Part shown: piece by piece, positions 21,678 to 25,365 of the stretch
How the letters are laid out: each line of letters opens with the position of its first letter
Position numbering within the stretch: the stretch's first letter is position 1
Origin: a virus
Virus record (IMG/VR): IMGVR_UViG_3300044699_000077
Coordinates: 1 to 44,631 of that record
Length of the DNA: 44,631 nt
Strand: one strand, 5' to 3'
Program-made: the position numbers and the translations under genes
The notes under the pieces: generated by a model
What the model was told of the DNA's origin: nothing
Database searches by the model: none
Seen by the model: only the letters and a program-made list of their open reading frames with translations

Positions 21678-21878
21678 ATGACCCTCGATCAATATCTCAG
21701 CTCCGATGATGCTCCCACCGGGGCGGAGTTCGGCGCCCGGGTGGGCCTCAGCGAGGCTTCGATCTCCCGCATTCGCAAGGGCGAGCAAAACATCACGCGA
21801 GATGTGATGCTGCGGATCATTGCGGCGTCGGGCAACAGGGTGACGGCGGATGGCCTATTGCAAGAGCGCGCCGCGTGA
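21678..21878 (+). CDS. Cro-like small helix-turn-helix protein
   Basis: A 66-residue protein that is essentially one helix-turn-helix: PTGAEFGARVGLSEASISRI, RKGEQNITRDVMLRIIAASG. It is divergent from the repressor and lies behind the operator cluster, the classical arrangement of a lytic-switch antagonist. It should bind the same operators and shut off repressor synthesis. It is the first gene of the rightward early operon. Confidence 0.8.
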   Translation: MTLDQYLSSDDAPTGAEFGARVGLSEASISRIRKGEQNITRDVMLRIIAASGNRVTADGLLQERAA

Positions 21879-21883
21879 TCCGC

Positions 21884-22108
21884 TCACCGCTTAAACGGGA
21901 TAGGCTCCTCTCCATTGGCAGCATCCCATTTGACGTAGGCCCGCATGGCCGCGCTCGATCCTGCCAGCAGGACATGGGGCGTGCAACGAAGACTGATCTC
22001 GGTTGTCCCGCTGATGACCTTGATATGCCCGATCCCGTCATCTGTGATCGAAAATTCGGGTGGCTTGTCGATGAACAGTTCAGGCGCTCCGTTGAGACCA
22101 CTCGGCAT
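21884..22108 (-). CDS. small beta-rich protein encoded opposite to the rightward operon
   Basis: A 74-residue protein: FIDKPPEFSITDDGIGHIKV, then TTEISLRCTPHVLLAGSSAA and YVKWDAANGEEPIPF. This is a pattern I recall from small phage genes, and it looks far more natural than the rightward frame on the same DNA. ATG 22108 has GGAG eight bases upstream; a longer frame reaches 22150. It is antisense to the rightward early transcript and so could be transcribed in the lysogen. Confidence 0.6.
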   Translation of the reverse strand: MPSGLNGAPELFIDKPPEFSITDDGIGHIKVISGTTEISLRCTPHVLLAGSSAAMRAYVKWDAANGEEPIPFKR

Positions 22109-22203
22109 TCGGTTTCTCCACACCACGGAGCAAGCACTGCCACACCCCACTGTGGCCGAACTCCCTGTGTATCATGGGGATTTTTTCCGTCTAGCGGAAT
22201 CGG

Positions 22204-22644
22204 GTGGGTGGGATGAGCGGTCCTGTCCTTGGGGCGGCCGCTTCGCGGCAACCTGCTCTCGTCGCAAGCGATCAAGCCGCTTCGCGTCTTGACCCTACGG
22301 GCTTCGATCAGGCGCAGGGGAGGCGACCCGACATCAGCATGACTTGGCCAGACTATCGACGCCGCCAATGCCGCGTAGATGGTCGAACAGTGCGCCTTTG
22401 GCAGCAGGACGCCGACTTGCTCTTGCTGTTCCTCCTGCGCCGGGGCGAACTGATCCCGCGCATCGACATAATCGAGATGCTTTGGCCGAATCCGGACGCC
22501 GCGCCGGACTACGAAAGCGACTGCTGCCGAACCCTGATTAGCCGTCTTCGCAAGAAATGCGGCGTCACGATCAATGTCTGGTGGGGACGCGGCTATTCTA
22601 TGCCTCTGCCGAGCGAGCCCTTCGAACAGCGAAAGGCCGCCTGA
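22204..22644 (+). CDS. winged-helix (OmpR/PhoB-type) DNA-binding protein
   Basis: A 146-residue protein. Residues ~56-134 are a transcriptional-regulator winged helix as in OmpR effector domains: CRVDGRTVRLWQQDADLLLL, LIPRIDIIEMLWPN, CRTLISRLRKKCG and the closing wing INVWWGRGYSMP. There is no receiver domain, so it should not need phosphorylation. The first ~45 residues are largely encoded by the hairpin module at 22270-22312, and the functional start could be later. As an early DNA-binding protein with no target nearby, it is a candidate for the late-promoter activator. Confidence 0.7.
   Translation: MGGMSGPVLGAAASRQPALVASDQAASRLDPTGFDQAQGRRPDISMTWPDYRRRQCRVDGRTVRLWQQDADLLLLFLLRRGELIPRIDIIEMLWPNPDAAPDYESDCCRTLISRLRKKCGVTINVWWGRGYSMPLPSEPFEQRKAA
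22270..22312. repeat. 43-bp two-hairpin module, copy A (in frame in the winged-helix gene)
   Basis: Begins GATCAAGCC and ends GATCAGG. Hairpin 1 has the loop TTC at module positions 12-14 and the closing pairs C11-G15, G10-C16, C9-G17; hairpin 2 has the loop TAC at 27-29. It is 36/43 identical to the copy at 22741. At 10/16 and 25/31 both bases change together and keep pairing. Another small hairpin, CCGC-TTC-GCGG, lies at 22238-22248. Confidence 0.8.
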
Positions 22645-23622
22645 ATGTCCAACCTTCTCCCCTCCGATCTCGAGATGAGAGAGATAGTGTTTGTACCGAT
22701 CCGAGAGGATTTGGGCGGCTTTTCCGGCTCTCGTCCTTCGGATCAAGCCCCTTCGGGTCTTGACGCTTCGCGCGTCGATCCGGGCCGCGGTGCCCCGCTC
22801 AAGGTCTTGTCCCTCTTCTCCGGGATTGGCGCTTTTGACTTGGGCCTCGAACGAACGGGCGGGTTCAAGACGGTCGCCTTCTGCGAAATAGACCAGCGAG
22901 CGCGGCGCGTCCTCGCGAAGCACTGGCCGGAGATTCCCTGTTATGACGATGTTTGCACCCTTAGCGCCGAGCGATTGGCCAGAGACGGAATCGACGTTGA
23001 CGCAATCGTTGGTGGGTTCCCCTGTCAGGATATCTCTTCCCAAGGCGAGAGGGCTGGCCTTGAAGGCGAACGGAGTGGCCTTTGGTTCGAAATGGCGCGC
23101 CTTATTGGCGAGCTTCGACCGCGCTTCGTCATCGTGGAGAACGTCGCAGAGCTGCTTGCTAACGGGTTCGGCGCCGTTCTCGGTTCGCTGGCCTCGCTCG
23201 GGTATGATGCGGAGTGGGATTGCATACCAGCGGGCGCCGTTGGTGCGCCCCATCTCCGAGATCGAGCGTGGATTGTTGCCCACCCCTCGGAAGAGCCGGG
23301 GCTTCACGAATCCGACGCTTGGGAAAGCGCGAAACGACTGCTTAACGAGCCGACTTATTGGCAGGCCAATCCTTGGAATGAGGCCAGCGCCGCAATTTGT
23401 CGAATGGATGATGGGCCTGCCGAGCGGGTGGACCGAACTGAGGAATGCGGAAACGCAGTAGTCCCTCAGATCCCCGAGATCATCGGCCGCGCCATTCTCG
23501 CCTCTTGCGAAAGTCGACACTCGCCGAATGGCCGAGACGCGCAGCGGCTCGGGGCGAAGCCCGAGTGGCGCGGTGCCGCCGAAGAGCGGCATTCGCCCGA
23601 CCTTCCTGTCGAGGAGACCTAA
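22645..23622 (+). CDS. DNA cytosine-5 methyltransferase
   Basis: A 325-residue C5 methyltransferase. Motif I is LFSGIGAFDLGLE (57-69), motif IV GGFPCQDIS with the catalytic Cys127, motif VI VIVENV (163-168), motif VIII LRDRAWIVA (204-212) and motif X near GNAVVPQIPEIIGRAI. The target-recognition region between VIII and X is very short (about 65 residues). Residues ~26-49 before motif I come from the hairpin module at 22741-22783, and the C-terminal ~40 residues from a further palindromic stretch. It probably protects phage DNA from restriction. Confidence 0.85.
   Translation: MSNLLPSDLEMREIVFVPIREDLGGFSGSRPSDQAPSGLDASRVDPGRGAPLKVLSLFSGIGAFDLGLERTGGFKTVAFCEIDQRARRVLAKHWPEIPCYDDVCTLSAERLARDGIDVDAIVGGFPCQDISSQGERAGLEGERSGLWFEMARLIGELRPRFVIVENVAELLANGFGAVLGSLASLGYDAEWDCIPAGAVGAPHLRDRAWIVAHPSEEPGLHESDAWESAKRLLNEPTYWQANPWNEASAAICRMDDGPAERVDRTEECGNAVVPQIPEIIGRAILASCESRHSPNGRDAQRLGAKPEWRGAAEERHSPDLPVEET
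22741..22783. repeat. 43-bp two-hairpin module, copy B (in frame in the methyltransferase gene)
   Basis: Same length and outline as copy A at 22270. The seven differences are at module positions 10, 16, 25, 28, 31, 34 and 41. Pairs 10/16 (C-G here, G-C there) and 25/31 (G-C here, C-G there) are compensatory; 28 is in a loop. It encodes a Ser/Asp/Arg-rich linker. Confidence 0.8.
22943..23461 (+). other. overlapping +1 frame inside the methyltransferase with family-like sequence
   Basis: A 172-codon open frame in the +1 frame relative to the methyltransferase. It contains phrases that I associate with a separate phage protein family found near cytosine methyltransferases: SSSWRTSQSCLL, RWPRSGMMRSGIAYQ, GLLPTPRKS and FVEWMMGLPSGWTELRN. 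The DNA for catalytic motifs IV-X is therefore readable as two protein-like sequences. No ribosome binding site is obvious, so it may be unexpressed. See the finding. Confidence 0.25.
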
Positions 23623-23625
23623 CCC

Positions 23626-23829
23626 ATGTCTCCCCTCGAATACATTCTCATTGGGTTGGCGATCTTTTGCGTCATCATCGCTGCCGTTCTCTACGTCATC
23701 GACTGGGCCATTTATTACGCCAACACGCCCGACGATTTCCCTAACAAGCTCACCAATCTGACAGACATGCCCTCTCCTCAAGACGAGAGAGTCGAGTGCT
23801 GGTCTAACTTCAGGGATGAGGAGGCTTAG
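23626..23829 (+). CDS. small membrane protein
   Basis: A 67-residue protein with one N-terminal transmembrane segment (YILIGLAIFCVIIAAVLYVI, residues 5-24) and a polar cytosolic or periplasmic tail (TDMPSPQDERVECW). The ATG at 23626 follows the methyltransferase stop by three bases. A role in membrane protection or superinfection control is possible but unsupported. Confidence 0.6.
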   Translation: MSPLEYILIGLAIFCVIIAAVLYVIDWAIYYANTPDDFPNKLTNLTDMPSPQDERVECWSNFRDEEA

Positions 23830-24222
23830 ATGGGCGCGTCCTTCGGACCGGGCTCTCAGGCTTCGCCCGAAGCCGCTGGCGCGTCTTCGCCTGACGGTTT
23901 CGATCCCTCGCGCAGGCTTGAGTTTCGCCCCGACGATGATGGCCTGTTCGATGAGATCGTGGCGCGCTTCGCCGATGGCATGGTCCACGTCGAGACCATG
24001 AACGACAAGGGTTGCTATGTCGGCTTCTACTGGGATGACGGGCGCTACTGCCAATGGTGGATCAGCAGCGACAAGAAGCTCCGGTATCACCACGAAGACG
24101 GGCAGGGCAAACCACCCCTCTTCACGGCCTGGGGCGTAGATCGCTCCGCTCCTGATCTCCTCAAATCGTCTCTCCATACCACTCCAATAGCCGAGGAGCC
24201 CGACGAACATCATGCACAGTGA
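23830..24222 (+). CDS. early protein with hairpin-encoded N terminus
   Basis: A 130-residue protein. Residues ~5-30 (Ser/Pro/Ala-rich) come from a mini-hairpin stretch at about 23850-23930. The rest appears conserved: LFDEIVARFADGMVHVETMN, GCYVGFYWDDGRYCQWWIS and KLRYHHEDGQ, suggesting a compact alpha/beta fold with many aromatics. The ATG follows the previous TAG directly. Unknown function. Confidence 0.6.
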   Translation: MGASFGPGSQASPEAAGASSPDGFDPSRRLEFRPDDDGLFDEIVARFADGMVHVETMNDKGCYVGFYWDDGRYCQWWISSDKKLRYHHEDGQGKPPLFTAWGVDRSAPDLLKSSLHTTPIAEEPDEHHAQ

Positions 24223-24640
24223 AAACAACATCGTGGACGCCCTCAAAGGTCGGCAGGAAGCAATGCGCCGAGAAATGGACAGGCGGGGCTTGTCCTTGAA
24301 GGCGATCAGCTACGACAGCGGCATCGGTTACTCGACGCTGCTAACCTATTTCCCGTCCGCCGATTGCAAGCGCCCGCCCGCGCTGATGCCCGTATCGGCC
24401 CAATACTGCCTGTGCGGAGTCATTCCAGACGACATTCTATCGCTCTTGCTCCCCGATGGCAGGCTCATCGTCCAGGCGCCCGAGGCGATCGATCACGATC
24501 AGATATCCGAAGCCGTTCAAGACTGGCTCCGAGCCAAGGAAGCGGCTCACCATCCCGAGTCCGAGTGTGGGCGTGATATCGGCCCGCAGGAAGATAATGT
24601 CCTGCGGGGCAAGTTCGCTCGGATCGTGAGCGCGGCGTGA
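24212..24640 (+). CDS. helix-turn-helix-like phage regulator
   Basis: A 142-residue protein. The N-terminal 45 residues resemble a helix-turn-helix (RQEAMRREMDRRGLSLKAIS, YDSGIGYSTLLTYF); the middle part (MPVSAQYCLCGVIPDDILSL) is seen in similar phage proteins that I recall. The rest is helical. It lies between two methyltransferases and overlaps both neighbours. It is probably DNA-binding; target unknown. Confidence 0.6.
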   Translation: MHSENNIVDALKGRQEAMRREMDRRGLSLKAISYDSGIGYSTLLTYFPSADCKRPPALMPVSAQYCLCGVIPDDILSLLLPDGRLIVQAPEAIDHDQISEAVQDWLRAKEAAHHPESECGRDIGPQEDNVLRGKFARIVSAA

Positions 24641-25365
24641 TCGAGCCCGTCATCATAGGCGCGGCAACGCTCTACCTTGGCCGGTGCGAGGAAATCTTGC
24701 CCGCCCTGCAGCGCGTCGATGCCATGGTGACTGACCAGCCGTATGGCCAGCGTCAAAAGGTCAACACTTTCCACGCAGGTGGCAAGCGGGAAAAATCCGT
24801 CATTCAGCGAAATGGCGGCTCGCTCATGGTGCGGCCGAATGTCCATCCTGAGATCGACGGGGACGACGAGCCTTTCGATCCACGCCCGCTGCTCGCCATC
24901 GCTCCGAAGTGCTTCATCTGGGGCTCTCATAAGTTTGGCCATCTGCTGCCAAAGGGACGCATGCTGGTTTGGGATAAGGTTCCGACCGGCAAGCTACGCT
25001 CTCAGGGTGACGGAGAGACGGCGTGGACGAACGTCGACCCGGATGCGCCGCTCCGCATCTTCCGGCTGCTCTGGGATGGCCTGTGTGTGGGAACCGGAGC
25101 TCGGCACGAAGTCACCGCCGGCCAGAAGCGGCACCATCCGATGCAAAAGCCAGAGAAGTTGATGCGCTGGTGCTTGGAGCAGATCGGAGATGCCAATACC
25201 ATCCTCGATCCCTACATGGGCAGCGGTTCAACAGGCATCGCCGCGCTGCAGCTTGGCCGTCAGTTCGTTGGCATCGAATCCGTTCCTCAGTATTTTGAAA
25301 TCGCCTGCAAGCGCATCGAAGACGCTCAGCGTCAGCACGACCTATTCGTGGAGGCCGCAGCGTGA
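24637..25365 (+). CDS. N6-adenine/N4-cytosine DNA methyltransferase with atypical DQPY motif
   Basis: A 242-residue beta-class amino methyltransferase. The catalytic motif IV is near the N terminus: VTDQPYG, residues 32-37, where the family has DPPY or a close variant, so the first Pro is replaced by Gln. The S-adenosylmethionine motif is DPYMGSGSTG (191-200), preceded by HPMQKPEKLM (167-176). The order IV then I and the small size are typical of phage enzymes. No recognition domain is visible beyond the central region. It may protect phage DNA. Confidence 0.85.
   Translation: MIEPVIIGAATLYLGRCEEILPALQRVDAMVTDQPYGQRQKVNTFHAGGKREKSVIQRNGGSLMVRPNVHPEIDGDDEPFDPRPLLAIAPKCFIWGSHKFGHLLPKGRMLVWDKVPTGKLRSQGDGETAWTNVDPDAPLRIFRLLWDGLCVGTGARHEVTAGQKRHHPMQKPEKLMRWCLEQIGDANTILDPYMGSGSTGIAALQLGRQFVGIESVPQYFEIACKRIEDAQRQHDLFVEAAA

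Follow-up and report, generated by a model that had tools for sequence, protein, structure and literature searches.

A phage C5 cytosine methyltransferase locus that very probably encodes two chains, with the recognition chain in the +1 frame of the catalytic one

The window, i.e., the whole stretch of DNA analyzed here (44,631 nucleotides, positions 1 to 44,631 of IMG/VR virus record IMGVR_UViG_3300044699_000077, with phage genes such as integrase, terminase, and portal), contains a C5 cytosine methyltransferase locus that in all likelihood encodes a two-chain enzyme, the chains sharing DNA in two reading frames and the second chain (beta) supplying the recognition domain (Table 1). Both frames are under selection, the selected frame swaps after motif VIII, motif IX lies on beta and not on the catalytic chain (alpha), and the overlap is universal among the relatives recovered. 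From this we infer that beta is translated, that it forms a heterodimer with alpha, and that the pair would be active at a target site of its own and could protect the phage DNA.

Table 1 Features of the overlapping methyltransferase locus (coordinates are those of the window)
Feature	Position	Strand	Remarks
Alpha chain, C5 cytosine methyltransferase catalytic domain, motifs I-VIII and X	22645..23622	+	325 aa; PF00145 1e-40
Beta chain, +1 frame of alpha, 172 aa	22943..23461	+	ATG-TAG ORF; PHROG 1008
Beta layout: N-terminal part over motifs IV-VIII, then hypervariable putative target-recognition region, then motif IX	22943..23461	+	
GGAG, Shine-Dalgarno-like, 10 nt 5' of beta ATG 22943	22929..22932	+	sequence
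Alpha motif IV Pro-Cys-Gln, catalytic Cys127	23020..23028	+	P126 and C127 invariant, Q128 near-invariant in 75 relatives
Alpha motif VI Glu-Asn-Val (E165)	23137..23145	+	E165 and N166 invariant, V167 near-invariant in 75 relatives
Beta SWRTSQ motif, on the DNA of alpha motif VI	23132..23149	+	beta alignment consensus SSWRTSQ
Beta WPRSGMM motif	23189..23209	+	P84 and G87 at least 90% conserved in 88 relatives
Beta GLLPTP, opening of the variable recognition region	23270..23287	+	P113, T114, and P115 at least 90% conserved
Frame-swap segment, motifs VIII to X	23281..23448	+	beta frame constrained; alpha frame nearly neutral
Beta motif IX (PAPQFVEWMMGLPSGW)	23384..23431	+	profile alignment to canonical RLTPREcARLqGFPd
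Alpha motif X (GNAVVPQ)	23449..23469	+	N270 invariant, G269 and P274 near-invariant in 75 relatives

Alpha has the motifs expected of a C5 methyltransferase (PF00145), namely I, IV (PCQ), VI (ENV), VIII, and X, but the PF00145 match covers only HMM columns 1-165 of 324 (1e-40). Its profile aligned with M.HhaI (1.4e-39) as far as motif VIII and then at motif X once more, with no motif IX match between the two. Merely 56 residues separate motif VIII (ending at 23280) from motif X (starting at 23449), and in this part of alpha there is neither a motif IX nor a recognizable target-recognition domain (TRD), which a complete member of the family carries between VIII and X in one chain. As the PF00145 match ends at column 165, the segment is nearly neutral in alpha, and motif IX is found in the +1 frame, we regard alpha as an incomplete single-chain member of the family; judged by their sequences, alpha and beta jointly carry all C5 methyltransferase motifs. 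The AF2 model of alpha (pLDDT 78, pTM 0.75, block pLDDT mostly > 90 across motifs I-VIII) had its best Foldseek hits to M.HhaI (2e-14), and sequence and model together point to a catalytic domain with a SAM pocket, the Pro-Cys-Gln nucleophile, and motif X, and without the small DNA-recognition domain. The original prediction, which had credited this frame with all catalytic motifs, was thus too generous: the PF00145 match is too short for that, and motif IX and the target-recognition region are those of the +1 frame. It was borne out on the second frame itself: the 519 bases at 22943-23461 do form an ATG-TAG ORF of 172 aa, the peptides quoted from it (SWRTSQSCL, RWPRSGMMRSG, GLLPTP, and EWMMGLPSGWTEL) are all present, and the correspondences drawn between the frames (QDIS with RIS and CRMDDGPAERVDR with EWMMGLPSGWTEL) are correct.

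The beta chain of the window matches PHROG 1008 (3.8e-21), as do 88 of 88 beta sequences. This family is entered as an ordinary one, named 'DNA methyltransferase' (329 columns), and its available entry text is silent on an overlap with the methyltransferase families PHROG 363/116. Searches of the 88 beta members against Pfam and NCBIfam gave no match, and those of the beta profile against the PDB gave chance hits only (a glycolipid transfer protein, E about 0.1). Where canonical enzymes have motif IX (RLTPREcARLqGFP), beta relatives have LNPTWVEWLMGFPxGW, and the window beta ends in PAPQFVEWMMGLPSGW; for betas of the window type (type A) the profile alignment to canonical motif IX is short and weak (P = 0.005), and the assignment is supported mainly by relatives of a different layout (type B, described below). 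Both length and sequence vary between GLLPTP and motif IX in the beta alignment, as expected of a putative target-recognition region. When modeled alone with AF2, beta gave low confidence (pLDDT 63, pTM 0.24) except for the motif IX helix, which would fit, without proving it, a chain that folds on a partner, and by itself beta is probably not stably folded.

Relatives of beta are widespread, and a tblastn search recovered 46 phage records at about 30-40% identity. Viral loci were retrieved both via beta (n = 80) and via alpha alone (n = 80), and beta was open in the +1 frame over alpha at all 168 phage and IMG/VR loci, the alpha-only retrievals included. The same +1 overlap was seen in 80 of 80 bacterial and archaeal contigs, from Proteobacteria to Patescibacteria and including one Thermoplasmatota archaeon, and in every locus of two later sets. 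No free-standing beta was found among these roughly 300 viral, bacterial, and archaeal loci, a total that is approximate as the later sets are partly redundant. Among 80 control loci of M.HhaI-like single-chain enzymes none had a real beta match (one weak 18-bit hit). Eleven of 274 gammaproteobacterial genomes had a match, and relatives were also found in enteric prophages; at one locus of an E. coli prophage (L397, 2501-3262) alpha has an internal stop and is annotated as a pseudogene by PGAP, and the beta match is partial. Three bacterial genomes (L386, L389, and L391) carry a distinct alpha subfamily with PCQPFS and with FGEQV replacing ENV (HFFAGIGGWSLALRLAGW in L386), and a +1 frame beta ending in LNPAxSRWLMGxP, so the overlap extends beyond one methyltransferase subfamily. 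Five metagenome-assembled loci (L179, L205, L218, L237, and L239) that could have passed for other frame architectures were rejected and not counted as such, because both frames shift together mid-gene, which is most simply explained by an assembly indel. Phage methylases may also contain out-of-frame HNH insertions (ShiLan domain, PMC11855218), but these are a different phenomenon, being insertions in some phages and not a conserved beta frame.

Given the alpha protein and its codon usage, the chance of the +1 frame staying open is 0.023 in the window (median 0.013 over 168 loci), and it is nonetheless open in every one of them. We permuted the synonymous codons of alpha while keeping protein and codon usage (100 shuffles per locus). 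With the full profile, not cross-validated, shuffled alphas retain 75 of 150 bits, and raw similarity would overstate the case because alpha conservation alone gives about half of the raw score. With cross-validated profiles, the window beta reaches 88 bits versus 21 ± 11 in its synonymous shuffles, and over all loci the mean is 69.7 bits for the real sequences versus 15.1 for the shuffled ones, and in 166 of the 168 loci none of the 100 shuffles scored as high as the real sequence. Shine-Dalgarno-like 4-mers were present 5' of 66% of beta ATGs, compared with 22% of the remaining ATGs within alpha (p = 7e-20). A preference for TAT over TAC as the Tyr codon at the most frequent beta start column, a possible sign of start-codon selection, was not significant (p = 0.19).

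Selection was measured on 28 independent sequence pairs, and since a transition weight of 3 was assumed and divergent pairs are partly saturated, the differences between regions outweigh the absolute values; the best nucleotide identity of the window being 66%, these values describe its relatives and not its own lineage. Outside the overlap, position 3 of alpha is the fastest (pos3/pos1 2.66, 95% 2.39-3.06) and omega_beta is 1.69 on alpha-synonymous and 0.85 on alpha-nonsynonymous changes, i.e., no clear +1 constraint. Over motifs IV-VIII omega_beta is 0.48 (0.35-0.65, alpha-synonymous changes) and alpha is strongly constrained (0.19-0.29). In the VIII-X segment the pos3/pos1 ratio of alpha flips to 0.50 (95% 0.37-0.62), with omega_beta at 0.27-0.43 (0.27 on alpha-synonymous changes) and omega_alpha at 0.60-0.96. 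Purifying selection on the +1 frame begins and ends with the overlap; from motif VIII to motif X the functional frame is that of beta, and alpha does hardly more than stay open as far as motif X.

Type B relatives have an alpha that ends after motif VIII and a beta in which the variable region, motif IX, and motif X follow each other in a single frame, most of this beta lying 3' of the alpha stop codon. This layout was found in Gordonia phage GordTnk2, Streptomyces phage Samy, and about ten IMG/VR loci (an example of the C-terminus is RRLAARFAEWLMGLPDGWVTDTPGLSRGNQLHAIGNGVVPRQA), and when the type B C-terminal profile was compared with 78 canonical enzymes, motifs IX and X aligned together (P = 5e-6). 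Going by motif order, type B can be read as an overlapping version of the AquI-like split. Loci in which alpha ends after motif VIII or is without motif X are L003 (1691-2561), L004 (1769-3110), L329, L331, L333, L336, L337, L340, L341, L345, L346, L376, and L377.

One option of the original prediction was that of a database shadow, i.e., the +1 frame would resemble its family merely through conservation of the methyltransferase frame. The score retained by the shuffled alphas and the constant overlap of matches with a methyltransferase favor such a reading, but it does not account for the cross-validated scores, the flip of selection to the +1 frame after motif VIII, the canonical methyltransferases that have no beta match, or the position of most of the type B beta. 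As the +1 frame is under purifying selection of its own, we reject this option and give it next to no credence; the alternative offered beside it, that both frames are used, is what the codon-substitution tests support. Two observations had been named as jointly telling against a used second frame, and only one of them was made: hits are confined to overlapping frames, but constraint at synonymous sites of the methyltransferase frame is present. The idea of a separate family that arose by overprinting holds for the N-terminal half of beta, which overlies motifs IV-VIII, a part in which the methyltransferase frame is the dominant one, and fails for the C-terminal half; as the latter aligns with the methyltransferase's own motif IX, we consider beta a missing piece of the enzyme and not a separate family. 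Likewise, the separate phage family invoked there does exist on its own as PHROG 1008, but each of its members examined here overlaps a methyltransferase.

If both frames are used, they could still be joined or have separate tasks. Programmed +1 frameshifting would produce a long alpha-beta fusion (motifs I-VIII, recognition region, and IX), either in place of a separate beta or in addition to it, and it is true that the canonical motif order continues in the +1 frame 3' of motif VIII and that in type B a single +1 shift would restore I-VIII-TRD-IX-X. We nevertheless find a fusion quite unlikely, given that beta is constrained for about 110 codons 5' of the frame switch and unconstrained 5' of its own start, that Shine-Dalgarno-like motifs are enriched at the beta ATG, and that type A would need a second shift back for motif X. 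Overprinted genes often have unrelated functions, and beta might be a real overprinted protein with another job (e.g., anti-restriction or regulatory) and no part in the methyltransferase, given that its interaction with alpha is a predicted one and the AF2 model of lone beta is uninformative. Such a role is very unlikely, since the motif IX and recognition region that are absent from alpha are present in beta, none of the loci examined has beta away from alpha, and the type B beta carries motif X.

In the two-chain enzyme that we favor, beta is probably initiated internally at ATG 22943 behind GGAG, and its N-terminal part, printed over motifs IV-VIII, probably docks on alpha. Beta would bring the missing small domain, i.e., the hypervariable recognition region together with motif IX, and the two chains would assemble into a single enzyme. 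The most economical history would be that the TRD-IX segment moved to the +1 frame relative to motifs I-VIII and then gained a start of its own by overprinting motifs IV-VIII, with the window type reading motif X from alpha. As no restriction gene was recognized among the window neighbors scanned, protection of the phage DNA would be the likely role.

The architecture itself is already known from M.EcoHK31I (YGGCCR), described from one restriction-modification system, in which the coding sequence of beta (about 176 aa) is nested out of frame in that of alpha (about 309 aa); the small chain of the window is nested in the large one likewise. In nature M.EcoHK31I occurs as two chains, the large one having motifs I-VIII and X and the small one motif IX (PMC3404938), and C5 methyltransferases split between motif VIII and the TRD reassemble (PMC3404938, PMC5944983). 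The window shares this allotment of I-VIII and X to one chain and of IX to the other, a likeness drawn from the motif layout in the description of M.EcoHK31I. Published reports put the predicted TRD of M.EcoHK31I on alpha, whereas we place it on beta because the VIII-X segment is nearly neutral in alpha and constrained in beta; also, M.EcoHK31I belongs to a restriction-modification system, whereas the window gene has no recognized adjoining restriction gene. The genes of M.AquI (CYCGRG) are not known to overlap extensively. M.AquI is split after motif VIII, with the distal variable region and motifs IX-X on the small subunit (PMC3404938), which is the split of the type B relatives and differs from the window, where alpha keeps motif X. 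In the single-chain M.HhaI and M.HaeIII, the catalytic domain of which is matched by alpha, TRD and motif IX stay in frame with that domain, unlike in the window. No paper describing the overlap as a general family was found in the open literature searched, and both the breadth of the overlap family and the type B form appear undescribed there.

Gene callers choose one of the two frames, and databases contain both, unconnected. Of 11 annotated records with a single frame, six give the methyltransferase frame and five the +1 frame, none giving both, and the five genomes with the +1 frame only have the catalytic methyltransferase unannotated at that place. Beta alone is annotated, as a hypothetical protein, in the deposited phage genomes L002, L007, L399, L400, and L401. 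We consider it reasonably likely that a large and old class of phage and prokaryotic C5 methyltransferases consists of obligate two-chain enzymes with a recognition subunit hidden in the +1 frame, although their annotations read as single enzymes or hypothetical proteins. In these, selection would change frames where motif VIII ends, which would let recognition regions diversify in one frame and require of alpha only that it stay open. If beta carries specificity, then predicting methylation specificity, cloning these enzymes, and annotating them in the style of REBASE will fail when based on alpha alone. The locus is also a clean natural case of a long same-strand overlap with the dominant frame changing along the gene, suited for direct tests of the origin of overlapping genes. 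Besides, it offers naturally split methyltransferases, a kind of enzyme wanted for targeted methylation (PMC3439449).

An antisense open frame of 809 codons (window 21817-24246, minus strand) spans the whole region and is presumably a chance ORF of high-GC DNA. A weak match of 39 of its residues to PHROG 28355 (E 3e-4) was found, and this family could in turn be a shadow cast by methyltransferase genes on the antisense strand. A second methyltransferase, of the N4/N6 type (PHROG 67), lies just 3' of the locus (window 24637-25365, plus strand), and Sulfitobacter phage phiGT1 (L402) also has this pair of methyltransferases, with the order kept.
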